From IMG/VR virus record IMGVR_UViG_3300032334_001128, positions 1-64,000 of that record: a stretch of 64,000 nucleotides of DNA; one strand, 5' to 3'. Shown piece after piece: positions 3,199 through 56,200 of this stretch; the stretch's first letter is position 1; each line of letters begins with the position of its first letter. A model generated the notes under the pieces. That model saw nothing but the letters and a program-made list of their open reading frames with translations. It did not search any database and was not told the origin of the DNA. Made by a program: the position numbers and the translations under genes. The DNA is from a virus.

Positions 3199-3223
3199 GC
3201 CCGAGAGATAGGACATAAATAAA

Positions 3224-27304: not shown

Positions 27305-27381
27305 AAACGGATCCAAATTTATTTCTAATTTCGGGAATAAATCTGTTAGAGTTTGAGTTGTTATTACTGAAAGGAATAAAA

Positions 27382-27906
27382 ATGACCAACTATGAAAAGT
27401 CTTATGACGAAGCCAAAACTAAGAAGTTCACCAAGCCTGAACTTTGGAGTGAAATCTTACCTAACCTATGGCTAGGTGGAACTGACGATAATGACCGAGT
27501 TGGTGATAAGCATTGCGAGTTTGATAGACAAGACATCTCTATCAAGCCACGACACTTTGATAGTGTCTATACCTTTTATGCTCACGCTAATCCTGTTGAT
27601 TGGCTAGTGAAAGAGTTTAGATACGGCTACTTTGATAGTGCTGATACTGACTTTGATAAGTCAGCGTTTATGCGTATCGCTTACAACATCTTTACTGATT
27701 GGAAGTCTGGCGATAAAGTGTTGGTGCGTTGCCAAGCAGGTCTAAATAGGTCTGGCTTACTTATGGCGATAGTGCTAATGCTTGACGGCTACGAAATCCA
27801 AGAAGCGATTGACCTTATGCGTGAGAAGCGACACGAACTAGTGCTGTTCAACCCTAACTTTGTTGAGTGGTTGAGAAACCTAGACATTACCAACCCTAGT
27901 TGGTAG
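27382..27906 (+). CDS. Dual-specificity/tyrosine phosphatase-like protein
   Basis: 174 residues from the ATG behind ACTGAAAGGAA. ILPNLWLGG is the usual entry of the DSP fold and Cys117-QAGLN-Arg123-S is a CX5R phosphate loop. The His normally before the Cys is Arg (VRCQAG), seen in some atypical phosphatases. It may dephosphorylate host proteins or RNA caps/nucleotides; the substrate is unknown. The stop codon lies in a 15-bp hairpin (27879-27914). Confidence 0.8.
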   Translation: MTNYEKSYDEAKTKKFTKPELWSEILPNLWLGGTDDNDRVGDKHCEFDRQDISIKPRHFDSVYTFYAHANPVDWLVKEFRYGYFDSADTDFDKSAFMRIAYNIFTDWKSGDKVLVRCQAGLNRSGLLMAIVLMLDGYEIQEAIDLMREKRHELVLFNPNFVEWLRNLDITNPSW

Positions 27907-37435: not shown

Positions 37436-38551
37436 ATGACTCACTCAAAAACTACTCTAAAAGATCACTTAGCAGTGTCTCTAGCTAACGCTGTGGTTAT
37501 GTATCACACTAGCCACGGTTACCACTGGAACGTCAAGGGACTTGACTTCAGAGAGTTCCACGAATTCTTTGGCGAAATATATGAAGACGTCTTTGGTTCT
37601 ATAGACGAGTACGCCGAGAACATTCGTAAGATCGGATTTGACGCTCCTTTCACAATGCAGGAGTTCTTGGAGCTAGCTACCTGCGTTCCAGAGAAGGTCA
37701 CCGTTAGCGATCCGACTCGCTTGACCGCTTCTCTGCTAGACGTCAACCTAAAGCTTATTAGCAGCCTAAAGGCAACCTTTGACTGTGCTAACTCTCTAAA
37801 CGAGCAGGGCGTTGCTAACTTCCTAGCTGAGCGCATTGATGCACACCAGAAGTGGGATTGGCAGCTTGCTGCAACCCTTGGTAACCAGACTTACTCAACG
37901 TCATTCATTGTTGTAGAAGCTGATATGCAGCCACTACCTCAGACTCAGGAAGGCTGGGATGACGAACTTGCATTCCTAGATGGCTACGACAACGAAGGTA
38001 CTGCATTCTTTGCATCTGGCCGATCACGTGAACTAGTTCTTCCACAGAACGTTGAAGCAGAGCTAAAGTCTTTGGTTGACGCTCACAACGCTTCAGCAGG
38101 AGAAGGTCTGAAGACCACTTTTGCTAAGTGTAAGACCGTCTACCGCCGTGGAGCTCGTAAGTATGCTGGCGAACTAGCTGAAGGTACTACACGCCACCGC
38201 TTTGCAGTTGCTCGTGTTGAACAGTTCCTATCTCAGATTGGCAGCGAAAAGCTACTAGCTACATTTAGCACTGACGATGCAGATCTTCTACCAAACTCAC
38301 ACCCTAAGGCTCTAAGCATTGATCCTCTAGTAGCTTCTGCTGCTGTTAAGAAGGGTCTAACTGTGACTGTTAAGAAGCCTGGAGAATACAAGCGTAACGA
38401 GGACGCAGTCCTAGATATCGCTGAGTTCTCTGGTAAAGGCTACGACGCAGTGAGCCAGATCAAGGATGCTTGGATCTATGGACAGTCTAAAGGCAAGTCA
38501 GGCTACAATACAGCTCTGGCATTTGCACTAGGCTATTTCGTACACGGATAA
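37436..38551 (+). CDS. Dps-like ferroxidase domain fused to an unknown domain
   Basis: 371 residues. Residues 1-150 follow Dps/ferritin: HGYHWNVKGLDF, FHEFF and SIDEYAENIRKIG. His30, His42, Asp57 and Glu61 have the spacing of the Dps ferroxidase ligands (12, 15, 4); the additional Asp of typical Dps is Gly46. Residues 170-371 are a separate domain with YRRGARKYAGEL and a C-terminal KDAWIYGQSKGKSGYNTALAFALGYF segment. A gene between portal and capsid genes points to a virion protein or head cargo that binds iron or DNA. The ribosome-binding site is weak (AAGGTAAACC). Confidence 0.78.
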   Translation: MTHSKTTLKDHLAVSLANAVVMYHTSHGYHWNVKGLDFREFHEFFGEIYEDVFGSIDEYAENIRKIGFDAPFTMQEFLELATCVPEKVTVSDPTRLTASLLDVNLKLISSLKATFDCANSLNEQGVANFLAERIDAHQKWDWQLAATLGNQTYSTSFIVVEADMQPLPQTQEGWDDELAFLDGYDNEGTAFFASGRSRELVLPQNVEAELKSLVDAHNASAGEGLKTTFAKCKTVYRRGARKYAGELAEGTTRHRFAVARVEQFLSQIGSEKLLATFSTDDADLLPNSHPKALSIDPLVASAAVKKGLTVTVKKPGEYKRNEDAVLDIAEFSGKGYDAVSQIKDAWIYGQSKGKSGYNTALAFALGYFVHG

Positions 38552-38656: not shown

Positions 38657-41600
38657 GTGAGTCAAAATCTTAGTGCCCTTGTTGCCGCGTTAGAAACTAT
38701 CAACCAGAAAGATCTGGAGCTCAGCGTTGTTGAGACCGAACAGATATTCAAGAAGGGCGTTGTAACTCACGTTCTCCAGCAGAATGCTCTAGTTGCATCA
38801 ATCCGACAGGTGGCAATTAAAGACGTTCTAAAGTTCACCGACCGCTACATCGCTAGCAAGCTAGATAACGAAGACCCTCGTGATGTTTTCTTCAACGCTG
38901 CACGCGAGGTCACAAGTTTTGTTGAGTACGCTGTCAACGGTCCAGCTCTAGAAAGAGTGATGGCAGTTGAGCACAGGGACCTACTCCCAGCGGCTCACCC
39001 GTTCTCAACAAAAACCATTAGCCCAATTACCGCATCAGCACTTCGCGTACGCAATGCTGCCTGGGTAGCCTGGGACCCACGTATTACTGATGATGCAGCA
39101 CGTAAGGCTGTATTTGACGCATACGTACAGCAACCAAACACAACCAAGGGTTTGTATGCAGTTGCACGCCTTGAATCACTAACTGCTTCTGTTGTTCCAG
39201 CAGACATCAAGCTTGGTGCAGTTACAGCTGCATTTGGCGTTGGTAACCCATTTGCTGGTAACAACTCTTCAGCTGCTCGTTCTGCTCGTGCTAAGTTGCA
39301 GCGTCGTGACCGTAAGGGTCGATTTGCCGAGATGGGTGGAGGATCTCGTATCCTTGCAATGATCGGCAACATGATTAAGTCATTCACCGGTAAATTTGCT
39401 GGTATCCCTCAAGACAGCAACAACATTGAAGTTGAAATTGCTGGCAACTCAGATCTTCCTGGCGGTATTTACTCTGTACCAGCATCAAAGGTTGAAGGTC
39501 TTAAGGCTATTCTTCGTGGCAACATGGTATCTCCTGCAGTACCAGCCAACTCACGTAACTCACGTGCAGCTATCGACCTACAAGATCTACTTGCAAGCCG
39601 TAAGAGTGCTCCTACTGGTTGGACAGATAACGGTGATGGTAAATTCACATCTGCAGACGGTTATTCAGTTTCACAAATTGATATCCCTCAGGATGCAACT
39701 GGAATGAATGATAAAAATGGTAACTTTTTACCATTTGAACTTCAAGGCAAATTTATCGGTGCTGGTCCAAACGGATCATACGACCGATCTAAGCCTGTGT
39801 TCGAACTTAAAGATGCTAACGGCAACGTAGTTGGTCGCGCTCAGGAATGGGCAAACCTTCAGAAGCTTGCAGCAGACTCAGACGAGTCTAAGGGTGCAGC
39901 TCCTAAGACAAAGGCACGTCTAAGAACCCCACAGCCTGCTGGCTTCCGTCAAGAACCTGGCGACAACACAGAGCCTATTGACGTAGTTGGCGATTCTGAA
40001 GTAGAGCCGCTACCGGCACCTCCACGTAAAGAAGATGATAATTTTGAAGCTAACTACATAAACTATTTAGCCACTAAGGATTACAAAGCTAAGGACGTTA
40101 CAGATACCGATGGCAAGTACTTCCTATCTGAGCAAGAGCTAGCCGATGGCGGTAAACTTTGGCAAGTAGGCGACGATATGGACGACAACGGTCCTCAGTA
40201 TGTAGCCCAAAAAGCAGACGGTACTTTTGAAGTTAATGGTAAGACTTTCTACCCAAAGAACTACGGCGGGGATGTTATTTCTGCTGCAGATGATGCCTTT
40301 AGTACTGCTGATAAGAATAGATCTGCTGGCAAACGGGGCTTTGCACAGGAGGCTGGTAGCGAAGAAAAAGTTAACAGCGAAACACTGGACGGCTGGGCAA
40401 AAAAGTACGGTGCAGTAGAAACTACTACTCCAGATGACACTGCTAAAAACATGAGAAGATGGGCATTAGATGGCCATGATATTGTTATGGAGAACGCTAA
40501 TACTGATTCTATTAAGCCTTACAATTTTAAAATAAAGATTACTGAGGGCCCAGACGCTGGTAAGTTCTACTGGGGATCAAGCGTTGCAGATATCCCATCT
40601 AACTATCAGTACGGTCTATCTAGGGAAGAGGATTTAGAACAACTCTTTTCATTCCCTAAAAATATAAAACGTAAAAAAGATGGCTTAGAGCCACTAAAAA
40701 CAGATAAAAATCAGCAACGCGATAGCAAGATTGAAAGAATTAAAAACAATCGTGCTCAAAGAGCTAAAGTAACTAATGCTATAGCTACTGCAGACCCAAA
40801 AAAGATTCAAGAAGCCTTAGATGATGCAGCAATTCCAGAAAAATACCAGGATGTTCTAAAAGCTCAGCTCAAAAAAGCTCAGGATTTTGAAAATGGATTG
40901 AGCGAAGATCCGCACTGGACTAAAGACGAAATTGCTGCTATCGAACAGATGGCAAAAGATTACGGCTATGAAGGCGATATAGTTCCTAATGAAGAAGGCG
41001 TGTACTCATTTACGCTAGGAAGCGAGGATGACTATAGTTGGGCCGAGCTAACTATATTCCCTGGCAATAGAGCTGACTTAACTCAGTATACTACTGGTGC
41101 ATATAGTCCTGGTGGATGGGATGAGCCTCCTAGCCAGGATGTAGATTCAGAAACTAGATCAATCCCTGTAGGGTCTTCTATGGACGATCTCGAGAATATA
41201 TTTGCTGGTGGAGATAATAGCTCCGATGCGCCAGAACCACCAGAGCGTGACGAAGACGAGGGCTTCTACCAAAAGCCGGGCGAAGAACCAGAAATTAAAA
41301 CCGTTGATGACTACGTAAACTCAAAGTACGGTAGAGGTTTCAAGGAAACAACTACTGAAGCTGATAAAGCAGCTGGAAGACGCGTTTGGTTCTATGAAGA
41401 CACAGACACTGGCGGTGGCGGTGAGGTCACTCAGAATGCTGACGGCACTGTTGATATTTCAGGTACCACTTTCTCTCAGGGTATGTTTGGCGAGAGACAA
41501 TCAGAATTTGATGACAGCTTTGACCCTAACTTCTATGGCGAGGGTGAAGACGGTAGAGTCGGTGCAATTGACGACGCCTTTGGTACTATTAAGTACAAAA

Positions 41601-44600
41601 CAGGTGATCCTGGCGTACCTGACTCTGACGGCTTCGAGCAGGCTCCTGGCCTCCCTGGATTCAGACAGAAGTCCGGTAAGGGTAAATTTGAACTACCTGA
41701 AGACTTTGACAGTGTTAAGAACTGGAAAGATCTTGGCAATGGTAAGTACGAGTACACCTCTAAAGACGGACGTCTAAAGGTAAGGTACAACGAAGAATTT
41801 GACGCCGAGCCTGACGGTGAAGGCGGTATGCGTGGCTACGAAAACTCATACGCTGAGATTGAACTAGACGGTGAAGTAATTGAAGACAGTCTAGATGCTA
41901 ACGGTGCTTCTTTCCTTTTTGGTGAGGGTGAGAGAGAATTCGAACCAGCTGAGCTAGCTGACAGAGTAGTTAAGTCTCTTAAGGATGCCCAGAGCAAGGG
42001 CTTCAAGCAAGAAGCTGGGAAAGACTCAGAGGCCCAGGCCGAGTCATACTTAAATGAACTAGAGCAAGATGCTTCAGAGATTCTCGATAGAAACCCGATG
42101 GGCACCACTGAATGGACATCTAAAGATGGAAGAGTTAAGGCAGTTCACGGTGATGACGGCAGTGCTGGTGAATACGTCGAGGTATTCCTAGATGGTAAAT
42201 CCATTGGAGGTGTTGGTAAGTATTCCCCTGTGGAAGATCCAAAAACTGGAAATTATAGTGAACCATGGGATAGCCCTGATAAAGAGCCAGGTTGGGTAGC
42301 TGATGGGATCTACGAGCTTCTAAAGGAGAACCTAGCTACTGAAGGCTTCAAGCAAGAAGCTGGTAAAGAAAAATTTGAACTTTCAAAAGAGTTTTACAAC
42401 GACAAGAACTGGTCTAAGGAACCATTTAAAAATCCTGAATGGACTTCTGCAGACGGTAAGGTAAAAGTCAAGTACGTCTCTGATGGCGACGTAAATGATG
42501 AAGGACGTCCAGTTGACACTTCTTACCTAGAAGTATCCGTTGATGGCGAAGTCATTGGAGATATTTCCGCACCTAATGCCCTTCAGTACAACGCAGGTGA
42601 TCCTAACGACCCTGAATACATGAGGACCGGAATTCCAAGTTCTAAACTAGAACTAGACGAGTACGGCGACGATGTCCAGGCTATGGTTGACAATCACCTA
42701 AAGTCTAAGGGTGGCTTCAAGCAGTCTGCTGGTGAAGCAGGTGGAGTTCGCAAGTCTCACATTTCTGACCTAGACAACTGGTCTAGTGACCCATCAGATG
42801 GTGGAGAAGGTACATACACCTCTCCAGATGGACGTCTAACTCTCGAGGCTATGGCTGACGCTGACACCGACGGTGAAGGCGGAATGAAGGATCTATCTCG
42901 CATTGCTGTTTCTTATGACGGTGAAGAGATTGGAACTCTACCTAAACTTGGCGTAATGTACAACGAGGCAGATCTTGCTGACGACGTCGACAATCTAGTT
43001 AGCAAGTACCTAGAAAAGCAAACTGGTGGTTTCAACCAGCAGCCTGGTTCTGGCAGACGAAAAGTTGGAAACTTTAGAGTAATTCCTAGAGAAGAATTCA
43101 CCGACATTGTTGGTGCAGCTGATACTTCTGATGGCGGAATTGTACGTCTTGAGAAAACTAAGAACGGTACAATTACCCCTACCGCTTATAACAGATTTGG
43201 TCAGGTGATGGCTCAGAGCGAGCCTACAACTGATCTAGACGCTGCTCTAAAAGAGGGTGAGCGACTGCTATCTGGTCTTGAAGGCAAGGCCCAGGACAGC
43301 CCTGAAGTTTCTGGATTCTCTCAGAAGCCAGGCGAAGAGCCACCAGCCTGGACTAAGGATCCAGCTACTCCTTTGCAGTACAACAAGCTTCAGGGTATTC
43401 TTGACAACCAGGCTGACAGGCTTCCAACTGATGTCCGTGACATGGTTGAAGAAGCCGTTGCTAACAAGGCTCTAACCAAGGGCGAGATGGGCAAGCTCCT
43501 TGCTGAGGTTGGTAAGAGTGCTGATCTTTCAATTAGCTACACTCCTAAGGTTGATAAGGCTCATGCTTCTGATAGAGCTAACTGGAAGTATGATAAAAAA
43601 TCTAAGAGTTACTCATACACCTCTGCTGACGGAAGACTGTCTATTAATGCTGTGTCTCCAGAAGACGGTGCAACTACAGTAACTTATGACGGTAAGCCAG
43701 TTCAGATATCTAGACCTTACGGCAGTGAGATCTGGCAATCAGTCGATAACGGTGGAGTTCCTATTGGAGATTCTGTCGATACTGCTATCAAAGATCGACT
43801 AGATTTTGAAAATAAAACAGGCATCTATTCAGATAAGTCAGGCTTCGCTCAAGCTCCTGGATCTACTTCAAAAGCAATCCGTACTCCTCAGCCACAGGTT
43901 GACGAGGGTCGTGCGGCATCAGCTAAATTTGCCAAGGACGGTTTCCTAGAACAAACAACCAACTACGGCAGTGGTGACTCTGACTTGTCATGGGAAATTG
44001 ATGTTGATGACATGGAAAGTGCTGCAATAGTTGTTAAGTACTCTCCTAACCGTGGAACATGGTACGCATACGCTCAGTACAGAGATAAGAGAGGTAATCT
44101 CAGTACTGCTGAAAATGGCGACTTAGGAGACTTTAAGACTGCAGAAGAAGCTATGGCTGCAGCTAGTGCTTTTAATAACGATGAAGATCGTATGGATGAG
44201 TACAATGAAATCATTCGCGATGCTAGAAAAGCTCGTATGCAGGCAGTTGCAACTAAGTTTGAAGAGGCAGTTGCAAACAAAGACTACGATGCTCTAAAAG
44301 AGCTTTTAAATGATGAAGATGTTCTAACTTCAGAAGACTCCGATTTCTTAGAGAATGACATTCTAGAAGAGATGAACTCTATATCTCTTGAAGAAGAGCG
44401 CCAAAGCGATGTTGAGGATGCTCTCGCTTCGAATGATAAAGATAGATTAGAAGAGCTACTGGGTGATGACGACTACGAGGAGTATCACTCTAGGCTGGAA
44501 GACGCTATCAATGACTTCAAACATGGAGAAGAAGATCCAGACGGCTTCGAGCAAGCTCCAGGTAAAAAACTAACTCCTCGAAACAACCAAACTCTCAAAC

Positions 44601-47600
44601 CAAACAGTATTGGTGGCTACGATACAGGAACCGACGGGGATGGCTATATAGAAGTAAATCCTAACAAGGACGGAACATGGGAAGTAAGTCACGCATATAA
44701 CTACCTGATCGATGAAAATGGTCCTGAAGGTGTTATGGATGAGGGCTCACAGACTTTCAAGACTAAAGAAGAAGCTATGGCGTATGCTAACGATAAGCTT
44801 GAATATTACAATAGTCAGGAAGTCTATGATGATGCCTCTGATCACGCTATGGAAGCTGCATACCGTGGTGGAATGTACGATGAGGGCTTTGAGCAACGTC
44901 CTGGAAGACAAGTCAACATTGGTGATTTTGAGGTCTTTAAGGGTAACTATTCTCTAAGTGATAAATTTGAGGACTTCAATGTCAGAATTGAAAAGACTCC
45001 AGAAGGTAAATGGAAAGTAACTCCATCAGTCTTTGGATTCCCTGGAAACGATGTAAACCGCCGCGAGGACTGGTTTGATCAAACTCCTCAAACATTTGAC
45101 AACTTAGAAGATGCTAAGAAGTCAGCTGTTAAAGAAGCAAACTATCTAAGTAATGACACCAATAGATCCGGTGCCCTCGATGAGAGGGGACCAGGTTATG
45201 GTTTCGCTCAGAAGCCTGGAAAGAAAGTAAGTCCAGAAGTTTCTGCTAAGAACAAGGAACTAGCTAAGAGACTTATGGAAAAGGGTGCTTTTGATCCTGA
45301 TGGTGGTTTAGATGAAGATGACCCAGACTATGAAGCTCTTCAAGATATTAAGGATCGTAACGAGGCTTACCTAGATAACCTTGCTGCTACAGATCCAGCA
45401 GAGTATTTCTATACTATTGCTAAAGCTGGAGAGTTTATGGGCGCTGAACCATCTGACTTCAGACGTATGATTGAAAAGCCATACAACTACCATGCTGAAG
45501 TTCTTGAATCAGAGATGAACAGCTGGGTCGGAGACAACAACAGCGGCTACTGGTTAGATGAAATCGGTCACGGCTCTGAGGGCGAAGGCTTCGCTCAAAA
45601 AGCTGGAACTAAGAAAGTAAATCCAAAGGCAGCAATTCAAAAGATTATTGATGCAGCTCCTAAAGATCAGGGCTTTGCTCAGCGTGCTGGTAAAGAAGAC
45701 GGTTTAAAGAGCAACGGTACAATTGCTGGAGATATCTATGATCCAGAGACCTACGGCATGATGGACTGGGCATCTAAATGGACAGATTTCTCGGTTTCTG
45801 AAGGAGAAAATAGGCTTGGCGAGTGGTGGAAGTGGCAAGAAGAGTTTGGTCAGTGGGCAGTTAGCGAAGATCCAAAAGAAGCTGCGGGTCAGGGTCTAGT
45901 TGACGTCTACACTCTTCGTGATATTTTAGATGGAAACGTTGGCACGTTTAATCCTCTAAGCAAGAGAGATTCCGGTTGGCGTGATCGAGGAGATGGTAGT
46001 CACGAGTTTAAATCTGAGACTATAAATATATTCCCTACTAAAAATGATGACGGAACATTTGATTACACCATTACTAATGCGGCTACCGATGAGTTGATTG
46101 ACACAATCGAAAACGTAGGTGCGGCTGATAGTGTTGAAAATCTTATTTCTGGTGAATTTAGATCAGATTTGGAAGATATTGGCTATGAAGTCAGTGGTAG
46201 ATCTAGTAATGCTGTTAATCTATTCTCAGATCCATATGACAGAAGTAGAGGGTTTGCTCAAAAGTCTGGATCTGACTCCGGGCTATTAGAAGAAAATCCT
46301 GCAGCTATTAAACTCAGCGGTAAATTTAGTGATACCGGATCTGGTGGAATAAACTATCAGGATTCTGAAGGTAGATCCAAGGGTAGCGTACAAATGTTCT
46401 TTACTAAAGATAAGAATGGTAAAGAAAGCTACGGTTGGATGGTCGAGTACCTACCATCTAATGGAGAAGGTATTGTACGTAAGAGTTTTATGCAAAAATA
46501 TGACGGTGCCTACGAAGGAAAACCGTGGATTGCAGCTGAAAAACATCTAAGAAATCTAATTGCTAAAGACAATGCTAGCCAGAACAAACAAAAAACTGGT
46601 GGATTCTCTGCTAAGCAGATGGAACCTGCAACTCCTGCCCAGTATGCTCTTCTACAAGAGTACGCTGACGAGAGAGTACCAGCTGATGATCTAACTGCAC
46701 AGGCAATTCAAGACGCACTTGCTAACAGGAACCTAACTAAGGCACAGATGAGTGCTCTTATTGGTCCTATGAACGATGCTGAATTCAAGCCGGGCGTTGA
46801 CCCTAACAAGCCAAGCGACCGTGCTCTTAAGTCATTAAACAGCAAGCTTGTCACTAAAGATCTAACTCCAGAAGAAGTCAAGGACATCCTAGACAACCTA
46901 CCGAACATGAACCGTGCAGAAGTTGATGCTCTAAACGACAGGCTTCGCAGGAAGAAGGATCGTCCAGAGACCATTGGTTTCGCTCAAGAGCCAGGTGGTT
47001 CTGATGACGAGAACATGGAGCAGCTAATGGGCGACGACCTAGGCAACGACAGAAACGTTGAAACCCAGGGCGAAATGTCTGACTACTACAACTCTCTCAA
47101 AGGTGACCGTATTGCAGAACTTCAAAAGAAACTCGATGCTGCAAATGAAGAAATCAATATCTTCGGTCTAGATGACTTGCAAGAAATGCTAGACGAGGCT
47201 GACCCAGATAGCGAAGCTAACCTAAAGAGATATGGTAAAACTTGGCCTGCAGAGCAGTCTTACATTGCAGCTCAGGATCTTAGAGACGCTGCAGAGCAAA
47301 TTAGAAACAGCAATAACCCTAACGTTGACAAGAGTCTAGCTGATGATCTAGACAATGCCGCCAATCAGGTTATGAAGCGTATGGAAGATAGGATCAATCC
47401 ACTACTGTTCGCTTCAGTTGAAGATCCATATGGTACCAATTTTGATCTAGGTGATGTAGACACAGATCTAGACCAGATGCGTGAACTCTACTTTGAGACT
47501 GACACAGATGAGATCAAGAAATATCTAGATCAAACTGGAGTCTACGGTGACGTTAGATCTGGTGGAGCAGAAGCAGTAGTTTCTGATAAACCAGAAGAAG

Positions 47601-50600
47601 ATGGCGAAAACAAAGGCAAATACAGAGCTTCTGTAAGTTACGGTGGCGGAACTGCTGCTGATGATCAGGTAGAGTACTTTGATGACCCAGAAGATGCTAA
47701 AGACTGGGCAGCTAATGAAGTTTCTAACTTAAGTAGCTATCACCAAGTAGGTCTTACTCACCCAGACAAATCTTTCTCAGATCTTGATGCAGAAAGAGAT
47801 GCTGCAATTGCAAATGGCACTGAGCAGGAGTTCCTAAGTAGACTATCTGACGTAGCAAAAATAATGAGAGATCAGAGAGGCGATGAAAAGCTATCTCGTG
47901 AACTTGATGACTACGTTGAACGTGCCCAGGCAGCTCTTGACAAGAAGAAGGGCAACGCAGGAGGTCAAGGCTTCGCTCAAAGACCAGGATCTGATGAGAA
48001 CGAGCAAGATATAATCGACGACATCAAGTCTCGTGGACAAGATATCATTGATGGTCTTAGAGACAATGGCAAAATCGATGTTGAAACTGATGAAGAGTTC
48101 GAAGCTAGAATTGCTGACTATCAAAGGAACTTGGATGGTCTACTATTCCAACTAAACTTTGGCAATAGCGATACTTTAGAGCGTTTTGGGATGGATTTCG
48201 ATTCCACAGCATGGACAAGTTCTGGTAATGACGAACTTCTTGCTCAGCTAGAAGATCTAGTTCCAGAAGCTAGAAGACGTCGTAGTAGTGCTATTTATGG
48301 ATCCCGTGGCTTTGCTCAGGAACCAGGCTCCGGAACCCCTGTCAGAAATGACAAACTAAACCCAACCAGTGATGGTGGATTTGGTACTAATCCTTACTCT
48401 GATAGTCAAATTGAAGTCAATCCTACCAAAGATGGTAAGTGGGAAGTAAATCATGCTTATAACTACATGATTGACGAGAATGGTCCTACAGGTACCATTG
48501 ACGAGGGTTCTAAACTCTTTGATTCCAAAGAAGAGGCTCTTGCATTTGCTAATGAAAAACTTGACTACTACAACAGTTCTGATGTAGACAGAGATGCAGA
48601 AGATCACAATGCTGATCGTTATACTGGGTTTGATCAAAAGCCAGGCAACGCAGTTGTCTCTCCTAAGATGGGTGAACCAGCTTCAGATGCTCAGTACGAC
48701 TACCTCAAAGAACTTGGCGATACTCAGGATGGAATCAGTCCGGATCTAGCTACTGCAATCCAGGATGCTCTATCAAGTAAAAACTTGACAAAGGCTCAGG
48801 TGGGTGCATTGCTAGGACAACTTAGAGCTCTAAAGCCTAAGGCTGGTATTGATACAAGTAAGCCGACTCCTCGTCAAATTCAGAGAGTCAAAGATCTTGC
48901 GAACTCACTTGGCCTAAGCCCTGCTGAAAAGCGTAAGCTTGGTCTTAGCAAGGTGAGCAGCATGTCTTCTGATGAAGTTCAGAAGCTCATTGACAACCTA
49001 AAGCGTAGAGGCGGGGGAGACGAGGGGTCAGGTGGTGTCCGCCCAAAAGGTAGACCCGGCGATAAGCCGGGTGGTGGCGGATCAGTAGGTCAAGTACCCG
49101 GAAAATTAATTTCTTATACTCCTAGAAGTAAATTCTTAGAAAAAGATAGATCTGACGCTAAAGAAATTTATGACAGAGTAAATAAGAATCTTGACAAATA
49201 TGCTAGTCAGGATTCTGAATTTGCAAAAAAATTAGAAGAGTCTAAGAAGAAGTACCCTGAAGGCATCTACAGCATGATTGACATTGCTGCAGATCCTAAC
49301 TCTACTCAGCAGCAAATTGACGATGTTATAAAAGACGTCAATGATCTTAATAAAGCTCTGCAGAGTAGTAAAGCGGATGTATTTGCTGGAGACACTAATG
49401 TATTAGATGGTCTTGCTAAATATAAATTTGCCGAGCTAACCCCAGAAGTTAATAAACAAAAACTATCTGGAGGAAGCAAGAAGCACTCTGAAGGTGACAC
49501 TGTAGATTCTAGATTTAGTGCTATGTATAACCCTAACCTAGTTGAATACAAGAGCTCAGAAAATGGTAGGGGCTCCACTAATACAGCAATTGGTTATGTA
49601 ACTACCGATGCTTTAGAAGGCATGGCTGGAAATGAAATTCGTAATGCAAGTGTAGTTAACGATATTGCAAAAGATCTTAAAAATGGAGTTGGATTTAAAG
49701 AACCGATAATCATGATTTACGATCCAAAAACCGGTAAAGCATTTATTACTGAAGGTAACCATAGACTTGCTGCAGCAAAAAAGGCTGGAGTTAAATACGT
49801 TCCAGTAAGAATTGTAAATCTAGATGTAGCTCCAGGTGACCAGATTAAGATGGAGCGAGTTGGTAAGCCTCTAGGACGTAGAGCTGCCCCTATTGGCGGA
49901 GGTGAGTGGTCTTCAACAATTCAGCCTAGTCAAATATTTGATGACTCTCAGCTTCTCCAAGAAGATGCCGGAGGTTTTGCTCAAGCAGCCGGATCACCTA
50001 GAGCCAAGAGATTCAACGAAATGGCGGCTGACCGTAAGTTTGTAGACGCTACAACTGAAAAAGATGCTAAGAAAGATATTAGCCGTTGGAGTAGAGAAGA
50101 AAACGGTCTAAAAACTGAAATTACTGAACGTAATGGAAGATTCACTGCCAAGTTCAGCGATAAGCCTAAAGAAGAAGTAGACCTTGGTATCAATGAATCT
50201 GCAGCGTTTAAAGAGGCAGAACGCCAGATTATGCTCAGAACCGCTGAGTTTGACACTGTTGACCTAGATGGCTTTGCTCAAAAAGAAGGCGACAAGGGTC
50301 CTAAGCGTCAACGCGTTCTAGAAGCCATCGCTTCAGTAAGCAACGCCCTCGGTCTATTCGACGAGTGGAAGGGTAAGACTACCAAGGTTCGTGAAGATGT
50401 AAACAACGTTGGCGAATTTGTCAACAACATGCGTTACGTCAAGGCGGATCTTGAAAAAGCAATCAATAACCTAAAGAACTCTAAGGGTGTTGAAGAGAAG
50501 ATGGCTGCCATCTCTGAGCTGACTGCTGCAATCAAGAAAGCAAAACTTGCTGCAAGAATTGCTAAGGATCGTTGGAAGAGAAATCACCCTGAAGACCTGA

Positions 50601-53044
50601 AGCCTAAGGCTCCAAAGACTCCTAAAGCTATTGAAGCTCCTACAGTTGAAAAAGTTAGCAAGAAGTTTGAAGACGATTTAACTGCAGCTGAAGAAGCAAT
50701 CAGTCCTACCCCTGGACGACTTCCTAATCCTGAGCCTTACAACATTCCACGTGGTGGAGTGTACATGTATGACGAAAACGGTAACCGCCTACGTCAAGAT
50801 GGCACACCTTTTAGACCGATTGGTCCTTCAGATCTGGATGGCTTCGCTCAGTCCCTACCGACCGAGACAGTATCTCCTAAAGATTTCAAGGCTAGACAAG
50901 CTAAAGCTATAGCAGATAACAAGGCTGCTGCGGCTTCTATGATGGATATTTTCCGTAAGCGTATAAAGAACCCAGCTTGGCACAAATGGCAAGCTCCTTA
51001 CTCAGATTATCCTGCCGACGATCCAATGACTGCTCCGGTTAATCCGAGCAACATGCCATTTAACCCTTCATCTAATCATCAATATAGTGCGATAAACCAC
51101 CACGCTCTAGCTACTGCAGCTGCTGAACGTGGCTATACAGACCCTCGCTGGATGACTTCAGCACAGGCTAAAAAACTTGGTGCTACTGTTCGTGATGGCG
51201 AGCAGGGTGTGAAGATCATGACATTTATGACTATTGAAGATGAAGAATCTGGAGAGCGCTCAATAGTCCAAGTACCTAGATTTGTTTTTAACGCTCAGCA
51301 AATGGATGGTCTAGAGCCTTATAGTCCTAGCCAACAACCAAAGATGGATGCTGCACAGGCTATTGATTTCGTTCTTGGTAGATTTAGTGAAGCCGAGAAA
51401 AAGCGTGGCAAGAGTGGAAATATAAAGATCTGGGAGGATCTGTACGGTAGTGACACCCCTATGTGGAGTCCTGCAGGAGCTCGTAGGCCTGAAAATATTA
51501 GAATGCCTGATCGTAGCAAATACGACAGCCCTGAAGATTACCTATATAGTTTATTCCACGAACTAGCCCATGCAACTGGAACTCAGGATAGACAGGGTAG
51601 AGAAGCCCACCTAGCTCAAGCGCGTGGGGACATGACTATGGGTCAGCTAGCGGTTGAAGAAGCCACTGCCGAGATTGCTTCTCAGCTATTACTACAGCGT
51701 CTAGGTCTAAACTATAATCCAGACAGAACAGCCGAATACCTAAGATCTCACGATCTTAATGATGCTCAGCTAAATGAAGCAATGGCAAAAGCAGAGCTAG
51801 CAGTTGATTATGTACTAGGTAACGATGTTCTCCCTCCATGGCATAACAGCTCTAGCGACATGATGGAAGCTGCAGAAGTCCCTGGATATACTCCACCTGC
51901 TTCACGTAGCTGGAACCCTAATACTAACCTAGGTCCTCAGGACGCTCCTTCAGCATTCCCTGCTGGAACTCCAGGATCTGATGAAAACCCAGAAGTAACT
52001 GGTTTTGCTCAGAAGCCTGGAAAGTTTGACAGAACTGGTAAAAAGTCTGTAACTGATAGCAAGACTGCAACAGAAAAAGTTATGGCCGGTCTTCTTGAGA
52101 AGATCAAGCAGGGAGAGACTCCTTGGCGTAAGCCTTACAAAGAGGGCGAAAAGTACGCAGGTATAGCTCTACCTAGAAACCCATCGTCTAAGCACATCTA
52201 CTCGGGTGTAAACGCTATGGCTCTAAGATTTGCTCAAGAAGAGAATGGCTATAGCGATCCTCGATGGATGACCTATAACCAAGCTTCGGCAATGGGTGGT
52301 CAGGTACGTAAGGGTGAGAAGGGTACATTCATTCTTGTTCCTATGCGTATCACTCAGCAGGATGAGAAAGACCCAAACAAGAAGCGTTCATTCACCATGT
52401 TCAAAGCTACTGCAGTATTTAACGCTGAGCAGATTGATGGTCTGAATCTACCTGAACTATCTACAGAGAGCCTCCCTAAGATGACTCCTCTAGATGCACA
52501 GGAATTCATTGTTGAGCGTTACAAGAAGGCAATGGCAGCTCGTACCGGCAAGGCTCCAAACATCAAACATACTTATGTTGGAAGTGGTGGAGCACACCAG
52601 GCTCCAAACTGGGGAACCTTATCGGATGAAGTTACTCTACCTAACCTAGAGCAATTTAATTCTCCTGAAGATCTGTTTGACACAATCGCTCACGAACTTG
52701 TACACAGTACAGGCCACCCAGATCGTCTAGACAGATCGGATCTAACCAAGGACTATGCCAATGATTTAGAGTCTAGAGCTAGAGAAGAACTTATTGCTGA
52801 AATTGGAGGTGCTCTACTAGCTAATATGTTTGGTGTAGATGCAACATTTGATAACAGTGCAGCATATGTTCAAAGCTGGCTAAAGCACCTACAATCCAAC
52901 CCAGACGAGATTATCAATGCAACTAGCCAGGCCCAAAAAGCTGTAGACTATATTCTTGGTACAGATCTTGGAGACTGGAGCCCGATTGACGGATATAGCA
53001 TTGGAAATGCTGTCCAAAAACCTACAGAAGAAGAGGAGTCATAA
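38657..53044 (+). CDS. Giant 4,795-residue modular protein, candidate capsid cargo polyprotein
   Basis: GTG start behind AGGAAGG. Residues 1-290 include RRDRKGRFAEMGG (near 215), a head-polyprotein motif. From residue 429 about 25 copies of G-F-x-Q-x-x-G divide the chain into modules of 9 to over 500 residues, with different codons each time. Modules repeat: TS(A/K/P)DGR beta units near 331, 1034, 1150, 1260, 1385 and 1652; helical LTK(A/G)(Q/E)M units near 1570, 2659 and 3342; EVNP-KDG units near 1995 and 3251. A ParB/Srx-like domain lies near 3655-3768 (GNHRLAAAKKAG). Two ArdC-like units end the chain, HELAH (4301) and HELVH (4679). Probably packaged with the DNA; cleavage is inferred. Confidence 0.85.
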   Translation: MSQNLSALVAALETINQKDLELSVVETEQIFKKGVVTHVLQQNALVASIRQVAIKDVLKFTDRYIASKLDNEDPRDVFFNAAREVTSFVEYAVNGPALERVMAVEHRDLLPAAHPFSTKTISPITASALRVRNAAWVAWDPRITDDAARKAVFDAYVQQPNTTKGLYAVARLESLTASVVPADIKLGAVTAAFGVGNPFAGNNSSAARSARAKLQRRDRKGRFAEMGGGSRILAMIGNMIKSFTGKFAGIPQDSNNIEVEIAGNSDLPGGIYSVPASKVEGLKAILRGNMVSPAVPANSRNSRAAIDLQDLLASRKSAPTGWTDNGDGKFTSADGYSVSQIDIPQDATGMNDKNGNFLPFELQGKFIGAGPNGSYDRSKPVFELKDANGNVVGRAQEWANLQKLAADSDESKGAAPKTKARLRTPQPAGFRQEPGDNTEPIDVVGDSEVEPLPAPPRKEDDNFEANYINYLATKDYKAKDVTDTDGKYFLSEQELADGGKLWQVGDDMDDNGPQYVAQKADGTFEVNGKTFYPKNYGGDVISAADDAFSTADKNRSAGKRGFAQEAGSEEKVNSETLDGWAKKYGAVETTTPDDTAKNMRRWALDGHDIVMENANTDSIKPYNFKIKITEGPDAGKFYWGSSVADIPSNYQYGLSREEDLEQLFSFPKNIKRKKDGLEPLKTDKNQQRDSKIERIKNNRAQRAKVTNAIATADPKKIQEALDDAAIPEKYQDVLKAQLKKAQDFENGLSEDPHWTKDEIAAIEQMAKDYGYEGDIVPNEEGVYSFTLGSEDDYSWAELTIFPGNRADLTQYTTGAYSPGGWDEPPSQDVDSETRSIPVGSSMDDLENIFAGGDNSSDAPEPPERDEDEGFYQKPGEEPEIKTVDDYVNSKYGRGFKETTTEADKAAGRRVWFYEDTDTGGGGEVTQNADGTVDISGTTFSQGMFGERQSEFDDSFDPNFYGEGEDGRVGAIDDAFGTIKYKTGDPGVPDSDGFEQAPGLPGFRQKSGKGKFELPEDFDSVKNWKDLGNGKYEYTSKDGRLKVRYNEEFDAEPDGEGGMRGYENSYAEIELDGEVIEDSLDANGASFLFGEGEREFEPAELADRVVKSLKDAQSKGFKQEAGKDSEAQAESYLNELEQDASEILDRNPMGTTEWTSKDGRVKAVHGDDGSAGEYVEVFLDGKSIGGVGKYSPVEDPKTGNYSEPWDSPDKEPGWVADGIYELLKENLATEGFKQEAGKEKFELSKEFYNDKNWSKEPFKNPEWTSADGKVKVKYVSDGDVNDEGRPVDTSYLEVSVDGEVIGDISAPNALQYNAGDPNDPEYMRTGIPSSKLELDEYGDDVQAMVDNHLKSKGGFKQSAGEAGGVRKSHISDLDNWSSDPSDGGEGTYTSPDGRLTLEAMADADTDGEGGMKDLSRIAVSYDGEEIGTLPKLGVMYNEADLADDVDNLVSKYLEKQTGGFNQQPGSGRRKVGNFRVIPREEFTDIVGAADTSDGGIVRLEKTKNGTITPTAYNRFGQVMAQSEPTTDLDAALKEGERLLSGLEGKAQDSPEVSGFSQKPGEEPPAWTKDPATPLQYNKLQGILDNQADRLPTDVRDMVEEAVANKALTKGEMGKLLAEVGKSADLSISYTPKVDKAHASDRANWKYDKKSKSYSYTSADGRLSINAVSPEDGATTVTYDGKPVQISRPYGSEIWQSVDNGGVPIGDSVDTAIKDRLDFENKTGIYSDKSGFAQAPGSTSKAIRTPQPQVDEGRAASAKFAKDGFLEQTTNYGSGDSDLSWEIDVDDMESAAIVVKYSPNRGTWYAYAQYRDKRGNLSTAENGDLGDFKTAEEAMAAASAFNNDEDRMDEYNEIIRDARKARMQAVATKFEEAVANKDYDALKELLNDEDVLTSEDSDFLENDILEEMNSISLEEERQSDVEDALASNDKDRLEELLGDDDYEEYHSRLEDAINDFKHGEEDPDGFEQAPGKKLTPRNNQTLKPNSIGGYDTGTDGDGYIEVNPNKDGTWEVSHAYNYLIDENGPEGVMDEGSQTFKTKEEAMAYANDKLEYYNSQEVYDDASDHAMEAAYRGGMYDEGFEQRPGRQVNIGDFEVFKGNYSLSDKFEDFNVRIEKTPEGKWKVTPSVFGFPGNDVNRREDWFDQTPQTFDNLEDAKKSAVKEANYLSNDTNRSGALDERGPGYGFAQKPGKKVSPEVSAKNKELAKRLMEKGAFDPDGGLDEDDPDYEALQDIKDRNEAYLDNLAATDPAEYFYTIAKAGEFMGAEPSDFRRMIEKPYNYHAEVLESEMNSWVGDNNSGYWLDEIGHGSEGEGFAQKAGTKKVNPKAAIQKIIDAAPKDQGFAQRAGKEDGLKSNGTIAGDIYDPETYGMMDWASKWTDFSVSEGENRLGEWWKWQEEFGQWAVSEDPKEAAGQGLVDVYTLRDILDGNVGTFNPLSKRDSGWRDRGDGSHEFKSETINIFPTKNDDGTFDYTITNAATDELIDTIENVGAADSVENLISGEFRSDLEDIGYEVSGRSSNAVNLFSDPYDRSRGFAQKSGSDSGLLEENPAAIKLSGKFSDTGSGGINYQDSEGRSKGSVQMFFTKDKNGKESYGWMVEYLPSNGEGIVRKSFMQKYDGAYEGKPWIAAEKHLRNLIAKDNASQNKQKTGGFSAKQMEPATPAQYALLQEYADERVPADDLTAQAIQDALANRNLTKAQMSALIGPMNDAEFKPGVDPNKPSDRALKSLNSKLVTKDLTPEEVKDILDNLPNMNRAEVDALNDRLRRKKDRPETIGFAQEPGGSDDENMEQLMGDDLGNDRNVETQGEMSDYYNSLKGDRIAELQKKLDAANEEINIFGLDDLQEMLDEADPDSEANLKRYGKTWPAEQSYIAAQDLRDAAEQIRNSNNPNVDKSLADDLDNAANQVMKRMEDRINPLLFASVEDPYGTNFDLGDVDTDLDQMRELYFETDTDEIKKYLDQTGVYGDVRSGGAEAVVSDKPEEDGENKGKYRASVSYGGGTAADDQVEYFDDPEDAKDWAANEVSNLSSYHQVGLTHPDKSFSDLDAERDAAIANGTEQEFLSRLSDVAKIMRDQRGDEKLSRELDDYVERAQAALDKKKGNAGGQGFAQRPGSDENEQDIIDDIKSRGQDIIDGLRDNGKIDVETDEEFEARIADYQRNLDGLLFQLNFGNSDTLERFGMDFDSTAWTSSGNDELLAQLEDLVPEARRRRSSAIYGSRGFAQEPGSGTPVRNDKLNPTSDGGFGTNPYSDSQIEVNPTKDGKWEVNHAYNYMIDENGPTGTIDEGSKLFDSKEEALAFANEKLDYYNSSDVDRDAEDHNADRYTGFDQKPGNAVVSPKMGEPASDAQYDYLKELGDTQDGISPDLATAIQDALSSKNLTKAQVGALLGQLRALKPKAGIDTSKPTPRQIQRVKDLANSLGLSPAEKRKLGLSKVSSMSSDEVQKLIDNLKRRGGGDEGSGGVRPKGRPGDKPGGGGSVGQVPGKLISYTPRSKFLEKDRSDAKEIYDRVNKNLDKYASQDSEFAKKLEESKKKYPEGIYSMIDIAADPNSTQQQIDDVIKDVNDLNKALQSSKADVFAGDTNVLDGLAKYKFAELTPEVNKQKLSGGSKKHSEGDTVDSRFSAMYNPNLVEYKSSENGRGSTNTAIGYVTTDALEGMAGNEIRNASVVNDIAKDLKNGVGFKEPIIMIYDPKTGKAFITEGNHRLAAAKKAGVKYVPVRIVNLDVAPGDQIKMERVGKPLGRRAAPIGGGEWSSTIQPSQIFDDSQLLQEDAGGFAQAAGSPRAKRFNEMAADRKFVDATTEKDAKKDISRWSREENGLKTEITERNGRFTAKFSDKPKEEVDLGINESAAFKEAERQIMLRTAEFDTVDLDGFAQKEGDKGPKRQRVLEAIASVSNALGLFDEWKGKTTKVREDVNNVGEFVNNMRYVKADLEKAINNLKNSKGVEEKMAAISELTAAIKKAKLAARIAKDRWKRNHPEDLKPKAPKTPKAIEAPTVEKVSKKFEDDLTAAEEAISPTPGRLPNPEPYNIPRGGVYMYDENGNRLRQDGTPFRPIGPSDLDGFAQSLPTETVSPKDFKARQAKAIADNKAAAASMMDIFRKRIKNPAWHKWQAPYSDYPADDPMTAPVNPSNMPFNPSSNHQYSAINHHALATAAAERGYTDPRWMTSAQAKKLGATVRDGEQGVKIMTFMTIEDEESGERSIVQVPRFVFNAQQMDGLEPYSPSQQPKMDAAQAIDFVLGRFSEAEKKRGKSGNIKIWEDLYGSDTPMWSPAGARRPENIRMPDRSKYDSPEDYLYSLFHELAHATGTQDRQGREAHLAQARGDMTMGQLAVEEATAEIASQLLLQRLGLNYNPDRTAEYLRSHDLNDAQLNEAMAKAELAVDYVLGNDVLPPWHNSSSDMMEAAEVPGYTPPASRSWNPNTNLGPQDAPSAFPAGTPGSDENPEVTGFAQKPGKFDRTGKKSVTDSKTATEKVMAGLLEKIKQGETPWRKPYKEGEKYAGIALPRNPSSKHIYSGVNAMALRFAQEENGYSDPRWMTYNQASAMGGQVRKGEKGTFILVPMRITQQDEKDPNKKRSFTMFKATAVFNAEQIDGLNLPELSTESLPKMTPLDAQEFIVERYKKAMAARTGKAPNIKHTYVGSGGAHQAPNWGTLSDEVTLPNLEQFNSPEDLFDTIAHELVHSTGHPDRLDRSDLTKDYANDLESRAREELIAEIGGALLANMFGVDATFDNSAAYVQSWLKHLQSNPDEIINATSQAQKAVDYILGTDLGDWSPIDGYSIGNAVQKPTEEEES

Positions 53045-53275: not shown

Positions 53276-56200
53276 ATGATCACATTTATCGGCCAATCTG
53301 GGTCGTTGCTCTTGTTTACAAGTGAGCACCATGGTGTAGTTGTCGACACCGATTTTAATATGGTTGTTGAGTCAGGCGTTCCTGAGACTCTATTTTCTAG
53401 CCGTAGCTGGGAAAAATCTGATACAGAGCCTGGTCAAGATCTAACTGCTTTAGCCTCCATCTCTTTACAGACTATGGATGCAAAAACTATTATTGCGTCT
53501 GCTGGACGTATGTATACCATTCCAAAATCTGCTCAAGCAGAAGCCAAGAAAGCTCTTGAATGGCACAAGGAGCACCACCGTGGCGGCACTCCTGTCGGCA
53601 TGAATACAGCAAGAATTCTTGCTAAGGGTGGGCAAATAAGCCTACAAAAAGTACGCCACATCGCAAAGTACTTCCCTCGTCACGAAGTTGACAAAAAGGG
53701 TAAAGGCTGGAAGCCAGGCCAAGATAACTTCCCAAGCAACGGCAGAATTGCGTGGGCCTTGTGGGGTGGTGATTCAGCTTGGCGTTGGGCTGTTGATATT
53801 GTAAAACACGCAGATCCAAAACCAATTAAAGCTGGTGGCGGTTATCTGGCTCAGCAACAGCCTCAAGACCCTTTCCACAATGCGTTCACTCTTGAAGAAA
53901 ACTATGGTCCAGAGTTTATGGCTCGTGTATGCCTTGATGGATCTGGACTAGATCGCCTATACAAAGTTGACATCGATGGTCAAGTTTACGTGTGGGATAA
54001 CGACTGCTGGGACGACATGGGAAATGTCGACAGCGATGTCTGGGACTATGACCAGGGGTTAGATTATGAAGATGATGGCATAGAAAAAAGTCACATTCTT
54101 ATTGATGCATCGTCTGCTGTAATGATTGCAGCTCGTTTGGCAAACAATCCTTTCGGCAAAGTTTCTGTTTTTGATCTTGATGAGGACGAAGCTAGACTAG
54201 CTGCCCGATCAATTCCTGAAGAAGACTGGGAGATGATTGACCTAGGTATGGTAGCTGCTGGTGAAGGTGGTATTGGCCCAGCGTCATATACTCCAAAGGA
54301 ACGTGCAGCAAACGTAGCTAAGCAACCTCGCTCTGCGGGTGGAAGATTTGGATCAAAGGGTAGTAAGGCTCAAGTTGGCCAGAAGACTACACCTGGAGCT
54401 AGCAACCCTGGTTCAGCTCCAAGTGCTGGAAAACCTGGGGGCATAAGCCTGGAAGATCAGAGAAAGAATGCTAACTCCGGTCTTCCTCCTCAAGAAATAC
54501 TTGAAGGTCCTCTAGATACTTCTGGAATCCTTGGAGAACCTCGTACTCCAATCGATAGACCTAACGCTCGAATATCTGGCACTCTTCCTGCAATGACAAA
54601 GGAAGATCTCCACCAGGTTCTTTATGACTTCCCTGCTTGGGTTCAGAGCCAGCGTGCTTCTTATAGTCCTGGTGATTACCACACTCCTATGACTAGTGCT
54701 GGTGATGAGAAAAAAGAATCAGAAGACCCAGAATCTTACGACCACCCTTTACTTAAAAAGTGGCGTGCCACTAAACTCCGCGAAGAGATCAAACCTTCTA
54801 CAGACACTAGCTGGGCAGCCCCGGTTGTTGCTGCTGCAGGAGTGGCTGAGGCTCAGAAGCCAGCCGTAGATCCTGAGAAGGAAGTTCAAAAAGATGAAGC
54901 CAAACCAGAAGGTGCTCCAAAGAGCAATCCAAAACCTAGCGATCCTGGTAAGCCGGTACAGCTTACTCCTGAAACTTCTGACGTACAGCCTCTGTATTTT
55001 GCTATTGTTGCTCCAGATGACCCTCAAGCAGTAACCGATCTAATTAGCATGGTCCCAGCCAGCTCAACGTCAACTGCTCCTATGATCTACAAGCGCTTAG
55101 ATAAGAAGTGGGTTCGTGATGAGAAGACACTTGCTGATCTAAAGTCTGCAACTCCTCCACCTGTTGTCCCTCTTGACTCTGCAACTCTGAACGATGTTCT
55201 AAAGCAGGTTGACGGTCTAGTTGCATCTGCTGGTTACCTACAACACCAGATGATAGTTCTATGGGGACCTAGAGAAGATATTCTTGTTGCTGCTGGTGGC
55301 CTTGATAAAAACAGAGGTAACGCAGAAGAACTTCGCCGTTACTGGACTGTTGGCAAGGGTGCAGCCAAGATTCGTTGGAACACTAAGGGTGACTGGACTC
55401 GTTGTGTTCGTCATTTAGAAAAGTATCTAGGCCCACGTGCTAAGGGATATTGTGCTCTACGCCACAAGGAAGTTACTGGTCTGTGGACTGGTGATAAGCG
55501 CCATCGTGAGCTATATGGACGTAAGGGTGTAAATAGTAACAAGGCATTCTTCAGTGATGAAGTCCTTAAGTCTTCAGAAATGGTCATCGACTCAGTAACC
55601 TTAGTTGCTCGTGCTAATGATGCTAAGCACCGTCTAGGTCTATTGGCAAGTGCACCTATTGCCACATCTACTAATGGAGGAATGTTCCGTATTCCTTTAG
55701 TAATCCCTGAGGGTAAGCAAACCGGAGATGGTCGTACTTTCCGCAAGGGATCAATCACAATGCGTGAACTACCACTGCCATTGCTATGGCAAGTTAGAAC
55801 TTCAGACGGACACAATGGGTCCGTTGTAATCGGTCGAATTGACCGAATGGAGCGTACTGAAGAAGGTATTGGAAATGCTGTTGGCATTTTTGATACTGGA
55901 GAGTATGGGCGTGAAGCCGAACGTTTGGTTCGCAACGGATTTATTCGTGGCGTATCAGCCGATATGGATCAGTTCGAGGCTGAAGAAGAAAAAGAAAAGA
56001 AAACTTCTAAGTCAAAGACTGAGAACGACATCGACATCGATGACGATAAAAAAGTTGGTGGGGACAAACTCACTATAAATAAAGCTCGGGTAATGGCAGT
56101 CACTATGGTGCCAAAGCCCGCGTTCCAAGAATGCAAAATCTTCCTCGTAGAGGAAGGTGAACCCCAGGAGGATAATATGATTCCACAAGATGGAATATAT

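Follow-up and report, generated by a model that had tools for sequence, protein, structure and literature searches.

The window analysed here is a stretch of 64,000 nucleotides that forms part of a 126,293-bp virus record (IMGVR_UViG_3300032334_001128, positions 1 to 64,000). The large terminase gene, beginning at 30916, is followed by the portal (35658–37424; phrog_776, E 4e-103), a Dps/ferritin-like protein with a C-terminal extension (37436–38551; PF00210, E 6e-17), a giant protein of 4,795 amino acids (38657–53044), a 1570-aa open reading frame (ORF) with a head-maturation-protease domain (53276–57988; phrog_18402, E 4e-57), and the major capsid protein (MCP; 58126–59958; phrog_777, E 4e-81), with the genes from portal to MCP all on the + strand. 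A tail protein and a head-tail adaptor follow, and the giant gene is positioned between the portal and Dps-like genes on one side and the head-protease and capsid genes on the other. The initial annotation had named the next large gene a prohead protease, which the PHROGs match supports; the Pfam Peptidase_S78 match of this ORF has an E of 0.05, below Pfam cut-off strength, and an NCBIfam search gave no match for either the giant or the protease ORF. By eye, the C-terminal extension of the Dps/ferritin-like protein, in the window (37436–38551) and in the sister L030 (L030:3945–6017), echoes a DLLPxxHPxS stretch of the giant N-terminal domain, and DUF5824 was found in this extension in 3 of 4 sisters scanned. 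Elsewhere in the window are a type IV leader peptidase-like protein (13611–14093; PF01478, E 9e-9) and a dual-specificity phosphatase-like protein (27358–27906; PF00782, E 3e-11).

As the initial annotation had it, the giant gene is read in one uninterrupted frame of 4,795 codons; its start codon is GTG, and the protein contains 24 exact copies of the motif GFxQxxG together with one degenerate copy. The exact copies, all found by pattern match on the + strand, are GFRQEPG at residue 429 (39941–39961), GFAQEAG at 561 (40337–40357), GFYQKPG at 869 (41261–41281), GFEQAPG at 992 (41630–41650), GFRQKSG at 1001 (41657–41677), GFKQEAG at 1115 (41999–42019) and again at 1230 (42344–42364), GFKQSAG at 1353 (42713–42733), GFNQQPG at 1458 (43028–43048), GFSQKPG at 1553 (43313–43333), GFAQAPG at 1729 (43841–43861), GFEQAPG at 1963 (44543–44563), GFEQRPG at 2077 (44885–44905), GFAQKPG at 2182 (45200–45220), GFAQKAG at 2311 (45587–45607), GFAQRAG at 2339 (45671–45691), GFAQKSG at 2532 (46250–46270), GFAQEPG at 2774 (46976–46996), GFAQRPG at 3105 (47969–47989), GFAQEPG at 3218 (48308–48328), GFDQKPG at 3324 (48626–48646), GFAQAAG at 3773 (49973–49993), GFAQKEG at 3872 (50270–50290) and GFAQKPG at 4449 (52001–52021). 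The degenerate copy, GFAQSLP, lies at residue 4062 (50840–50860, + strand) and was recognized by similarity to the pattern. These positions agree within one residue with those of the annotation, which had counted about 25 motifs.

Shuffling of the giant protein (n = 1,000) gave a mean of 0.05 GFxQxxG matches and a maximum of 2, compared with the 24 observed. In the rest of the 126,293-bp record the rate is one match per 35,292 residues (six-frame ORFs of at least 100 aa), and this sole match lies in a minus-strand frame with LQGTQGTQGTT after it. The codons of the motif are varied, with GGC used 15 times, GGT 5, GGA 2 and GGG 2 for the first glycine, TTC 15 and TTT 9 for the phenylalanine, and CAA 14 and CAG 10 for the glutamine, and the 60 nt flanking the copies show a mean identity of 29%. 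The codon variety and the dissimilar flanks indicate that the motif is not a DNA repeat and rule out a DNA-level repeat or recombination site, and the earlier proposal of selection at the protein level is borne out by the same figures. As a punctuation signal GFxQxxG is genuine and under selection, and it belongs to a set of such signals that are each specific to a lineage.

Cutting the giant in silico at the motifs results in 25 pieces, comprising an N-terminal piece of 428 residues, two tiny pieces of 2 and 21 residues, and others of 88–570 residues. The N-terminal piece corresponds to a family domain (residues 1–428; 38657–39940, +) with the signature QRRDxxGxFAxMGGG. Further along the + strand are a ParB-like domain (residues 3643–3723; 49583–49825; phrog_8071, E 5e-5), a first copy of an ArdC-N domain with a zincin, containing HELAHATG, whose approximate bounds were set by eye (50954–51826), and a second ArdC-N (4471–4588) with an MPTase-PolyVal domain (4654–4758; together 52067–52930; Pfam, whole-protein E 3e-48 and 3e-40). 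The giant has two stretches each of ArdcN and MPTase-PolyVal, of which Pfam located only the best one. The annotation placed the motifs always between modules; 0 of the 24 lie within a recognized domain (with the first ArdC-zincin bounds set by eye), and since recognized domains make up only 14% of the giant, the statement is unproved for most of the units.

A scan of viral contigs with the N-terminal domain gave 142 matching stretches, in giant head-region proteins, of which the best 80, representing 79 loci, were analysed. In 50 of 50 N-terminal domain rows the Q, RRD and G of the signature are invariant; the F and MG served to pick the rows and are hence not counted as invariant. In seven sisters this domain is 33–38% identical to that of the window. 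The annotation suggested a search for the motif in other phage giant proteins, and GFxQxxG was found in the giant ORF of 4 of the 79 loci (L009–L012), many loci being partial, with other motifs elsewhere. All four are close to the window: L012 is 100% identical to it over the N-terminal domain, and lineage B (L009–L011) is 70% identical. A second scan of viral contigs, with a codon subset of GFAQ[KE]PG, gave 8 stretches, of which L014 and L018–L021 are lineage-B contigs and L015–L017 are single matches in unrelated frames, which were rejected. Searching from the ParB part for another lineage returned only contigs already in the set. When the N-terminal domain (A1) was searched against PDB sequences, nothing matched at E 1; a region of about 700 residues of the sisters (A2) gave 3 matches with E of 0.14 or more, taken as chance. 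The phage collection contained one related record, DSL-LC01 (OQ999401), which has a 3,289-aa giant in the same gene place, with an N-terminal domain 38.7% identical over 269 residues. Unlike the window, it contains no GFxQxxG, and no other motif recurs in it clearly more often than in shuffles. DSL-LC01 was assembled from a metagenome, and its predicted host belongs to the Actinomycetia (PMC10611076), so that the host of the window phage may be actinobacterial. A tmRNA gene with the tag peptide ANTSAYALAA is present in the phage record (L024:7567–7910, record 110567–110910). Stretches of the form QxR[DNG]..G[RK]F occur in 6 of 6 sister protease ORFs (L140, L143, L142, L144, L146 and L147) and, read by eye, also in the window protease ORF (53276–57988); they resemble the signature of the giant N-terminal domain and may represent a shared head-targeting signal.

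Comparison of the window with lineage B shows 18 of 24 motifs in the same alignment column and 2 more within 3 columns; the remaining 4 are partnerless, and lineage B has three motifs without a window counterpart. In 17 window/B pairs, where the retention of G, F, Q and G follows from the selection, because both members had to match the pattern, the x positions are 55% identical, compared with 56% for the 12-residue flanks (100 gapped columns) and 60% for the rest of the protein, so the flanks are no more variable than the rest of the protein. In B an ADP-ribosyltransferase (ART) domain (PF03496, E 1e-11) sits between GFAQKEG and GFAQTPG. The chain is split in B into ORF1, of 3,341 aa, and an ORF2 that is open in the -1 frame and overlaps ORF1. 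The stop of ORF1 comes one codon past the heptamer C_CCA_AAA, of the kind described by the -1 frameshift heptamer rule, and six bases separate the heptamer from a CCCCC/GGGGG hairpin (L011:20002–20269). ORF2 has no start codon in codons 1–89, the first (GTG) being codon 90, and it contains motifs and lacks the N-terminal domain. The stem at this site has a z of -0.96, and 34 of 200 shuffles fold equally well, so that folding by itself does not count as evidence. No difference was seen between the three B contigs in the parts compared, and they represent one population. The B junction is a probable programmed -1 frameshift, which would attach the distal units to the N-terminal domain.

In sister giants, motifs were sought by gapped-pattern counts, isolated recurrent 8-mers in 35 representative giants, and inspection. 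A motif was assigned in 14 of the 35, and none in 21. The motifs are [IL]D[KR]M[AS] in L048/L042, [IV]EE[MSF][AS] in L030/L029, IE[DE]M[AS] in L032, P[IL]xK[KR] in L028, P[IV]VD in L045, IMDPP in L095/L098, EELP in L040 and QLMxF in L033/L036/L037. The weaker of these are QLMxF, IMDPP, PIVD and EELP, with few copies or copies partly in repeated units. At the 8-mer discovery step several lineages were barely or not above one shuffle (6 vs 5 for L030 and 5 vs 5 for L032, at a looser threshold), and the weight rests on the tests that came after it. A motif-by-lineage table of 24 giant proteins and 9 patterns gave 136 matches on the expected lineage and 13 elsewhere; at least 4 of the 13 fit two patterns, namely QIEEMAA (L030, L029), DIEEMAT (L032) and PIVDRMAA (L045). 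L035 has 0 matches to the PIVD pattern; it was placed in that group on account of the sites PVDRMID and AIDRMID. In six sister records the remaining sequence gave 0 matches to the lineage pattern. The linker before the exonuclease in sisters reads AVEESSS, AIEDMSI, PILKKAK, PIVDRKI, AIDRMID, EIDKMVS or QLMxF, and an alignment of nine giants shows differing motifs at this linker and, where rows have sequence, also near residue 560 and before the helicase. In a tree of the N-terminal domain a 12-row clade with support of 100/100 holds six motif types; only the inside of this clade is used, as its join with L031 may be false. No motif was assigned for 37 of the 52 rows of the tree, many of them fragments, and L038, the row of the 12-row clade that is labelled as having none, has a likely DRMAD site. 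The window giant consists of 25 pieces joined by a lineage-specific seven-residue motif, and its sisters have other motifs at the corresponding linkers.

A second giant gene (giant 2; 3,540–5,861 aa) precedes the protease gene in seven phages, and an eighth contains a portion of such a gene. The patterns, which were written from giant 1 (a single giant-2 site had already been noted in L028 and another in L029), match giant 2 four times in G008 and five in G009 (both VEEM type) and eight in G011 (IDKM type), with lower counts of 2 in G013, 3 in G017 and 1 in G010. The giant 2 proteins of G015 and G016 have 0 strict matches and 1 each with a looser pattern. Shuffle means are 0.01–0.06 for G008, G009, G011 and G013 and 0.16 for G017, and the counts of G013 and G017 only equal the largest shuffle count. 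By these patterns the same motif clearly appears in the second giant gene in two lineages, with weaker evidence in others. By a loose pattern, 4 of 8 giant 2 proteins have a stretch resembling the N-terminal signature close to their start, and in one of these the form is different.

The sister giants contain a range of enzymes. L030 has an exonuclease, a UvrD helicase and a DnaG-type primase, L028 an exonuclease and UvrD, and L048 an exonuclease, UvrD, ArdC-zincin and a primase. Giant 2 of G009 has an exonuclease and a PIF1-like helicase, that of G011 has PIF1, and that of G015 has ART, an exonuclease and PIF1; G017 has acetyltransferases in giant 1 (Pfam) and a zeta-toxin-like domain in giant 2. 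Repeated GNAT acetyltransferase units were observed in the giants of L135 and L043 (giant 1 of G017 by Pfam; L043 as repeated stretches only). In six proteins, 0 of 58 motifs lie within recognized domains (ParB taken from PHROGs, the first ArdC copy by eye), for which uniform placement gives P ~1.5e-6, a rough value since the proteins are related. The distance from a motif to the start of the exonuclease, UvrD, PIF1, primase or ArdC domain that follows is 22–53 residues, except in three cases: a giant-2 exonuclease (1282), ParB (319) and the first ArdC copy (198). An AlphaFold model of residues 1200–1860 of the L030 giant, built with eight sequences, has a mean pLDDT of 72.4, and its best PDB matches are mostly DnaQ/ExoI-type exonucleases. 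Both motifs lie in segments below pLDDT 50 (62–81 and 596–628), the latter partly drawn as a low-confidence helix, and a third long segment below pLDDT 50 (379–399) has no motif. In a model of window residues 1940–2352, 5 of 5 motifs are in coil, which is weak given the mean pLDDT of 44.6.

The giant is a polyvalent-type protein and probably a cargo polyprotein. In the sections of Iyer et al. 2017 (PMC5512222) drawn upon here, polyvalent proteins combine ArdC-N, zincin MPTase, ParB-like, ART, GNAT and primase domains next to virion genes and are predicted to be processed proteolytically by the built-in zincin; the word "linker" has 0 occurrences in the paper, and these sections describe no repeated linker motif. 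The window giant likewise joins unrelated activities in one chain (two ArdcN, two MPTase-PolyVal and a ParB-like domain), to which ART is added in B and RNase_T, UvrD and primase in sisters, and its gene has the portal and Dps-like genes on one side and the protease and MCP genes on the other. In contrast to the cutter predicted in that work, a zincin was not found in every motif-bearing giant: MPTase (Pfam, E 0.01) is absent from giant 1 of L028 and of L030 and from giant 2 of G009, all three with motifs, which argues against the built-in zincin as a universal cutter, the comparison covering the giants themselves.

With a probability of roughly 0.56, we consider the giant to be a cargo polyprotein whose loading depends on its N-terminal domain and whose division takes place at a motif changing together with its recogniser, probably a protease. 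The N-terminal domain (QRRDxxGxF) would bring the whole chain into the prohead, or attach it to scaffold or protease. The linkers would then be recognized in trans, most likely by a protease co-evolving with the motif, and the chain would be divided there into separate proteins. The units released would be antirestriction and zincin proteins in the window phage, and exonuclease, helicases, primase, acetyltransferases or ADP-ribosyltransferase in relatives. The separated units would be packaged and delivered with the DNA, where they could protect the genome and start replication. No protease varying with the motif was found among the genes examined, and two small ORFs between the giants and the Dps-like upstream ORFs, checked as the recogniser, gave ferritin, DUF5824 or no match.

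The motif could instead be a docking site, each copy binding a partner inside the head, such as the scaffold, a Dps-like protein or a further cargo chain. The chain would then stay uncut along the inner core, and the motif would shift with the pocket of the partner. The multivalency of 24 copies, the same motif in two genes of one genome, the lack of a site common to the window MCP, and a fast-evolving cluster, as indicated by the low identity of the giant N-terminal domain, are in keeping with such binding. The location of the motifs between enzyme units is, however, more natural for separation, and the second half of the B chain, which has motifs and neither an N-terminal domain nor an early start, is seemingly fused by frameshift rather than made alone, so the motif seems insufficient for loading. 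The latter point also disfavours the annotation's suggestion that the chain is loaded by the motif, and we regard docking as unlikely, though it is the main rival.

On gene order, the neighbouring head-maturation protease could be the enzyme that cuts the motif, as in T4 and SPN3US, with an MCP site that simply has another sequence. Internal head proteins of T4 and phiKZ are processed by the prohead protease. For SPN3US gp245, MCP, portal and cargo have a single type of site in common, and apart from the protease's own, the cleavages identified remove N-terminal propeptides (PMC10052503). Its substrates are head proteins cut at a short site, as the giants would be, and the VEE-S form resembles AXE, the SPN3US site, with V at P4 and S at P1' (PMC10052503). 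Unlike in SPN3US, the MCP here is without the motif and the motif separates whole enzymes. GFxQxxG is found neither in the window MCP nor in the window protease ORF, and the lineage motifs are absent from the sister MCPs scanned and from six protease ORFs of five sister lineages. A prohead-protease site common to MCP and giant was rejected on this absence from the MCP, a comparison that covers the motif only. In 15 of 15 MCPs compared, ITAGADIPGY follows a long N-terminal region, and in 7 of these (the window, two VEEM, PIVD, two QLMxF and EELP rows) VSEPA stands just before it; MCP cleavage may occur near VSEPA/ITAGADIPGY. MCPs were available for 7 motif types, and 5 of these keep VSEPA at this presumed propeptide junction while their giant motifs differ; the junction departs from VSEPA in the IDKM (VNYAP) and IMDPP (ASVAA) types, a point for the neighbouring protease, and differs in six rows without an assigned motif too. 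The MCP is 66–82% identical to that of the window over aligned parts in seven sisters. The protease region could be picked out by pattern in 5 of 7 sister ORFs, and its identity to the window region there is 68–75%, which leaves its specificity without an obvious reason to switch. With protease and MCP conserved and VSEPA kept, it is unlikely that the conserved maturation protease, acting in its conserved mode, is the recogniser, although the two MCP exceptions leave some room. The initial view of the motif as the neighbouring protease's own site finds no support in its simple form, and cutting by that enzyme appears rather improbable; of the proposed cargo polyprotein, what stands is a modular, polyprotein-like protein of the head cluster with a selected motif at the unit joints.

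The motif might also be a linker left over from duplication or shuffling of modules, with no recogniser at all. Some units are homologous, such as those at 1963 and 3218 (61.5% identical), but only 11 pairs among the 25 units match at E 1e-3, the codons and the flanking DNA (29% identical) are dissimilar, and the motifs recur in both giant genes of a genome and are exchanged for others at orthologous linkers, making this origin very improbable. Least credible is a host protease or chaperone that recognizes the motif after injection, the motif following the host: it would fit the lineage differences and the lack, among the phage proteins examined, of one known to recognize the motif, but sharp switches such as GFxQxxG/VEES/IDKM would call for hosts that differ greatly in specificity, and scanning bacterial genomes by pattern (one per species, 84,980 species) gave 122 matches with no relative confirmed.

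The cargo polyprotein recalls the Gag-Pol type polyproteins of RNA viruses, in which one chain holds many units with cleavage sites between them. The giants have cleavage-like sites between many units of one chain, and lineage B has a -1 frameshift-like site; they differ in belonging to DNA phages and to a head-gene setting, and their cleavage is putative. The literature matches listed, judged by title and the start of the abstract and mostly outside subscription journals, contained no phage polyprotein with linker motifs. More tentatively, and at somewhat less than even odds, tailed DNA phages may follow an RNA-virus-like strategy in which one or two giant chains of early-infection enzymes enter the head by an invariant N-terminal tag and are diced at the signal, the many signal copies of two genes and the protease or partner that recognizes them have switched together several times in a single clade, and one lineage doses its distal units by -1 frameshifting. 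Polyvalent proteins have been known for years, with the question of how their units separate, if at all, left open, and here the sequence marks the joints. The mark differs between lineages while the joints stay, which makes the question testable by lineage comparison, as the recogniser must change with the motif. If the recogniser is a protease, these phages would provide a set of proteases with different short sites, together with a natural phage-head cargo system.
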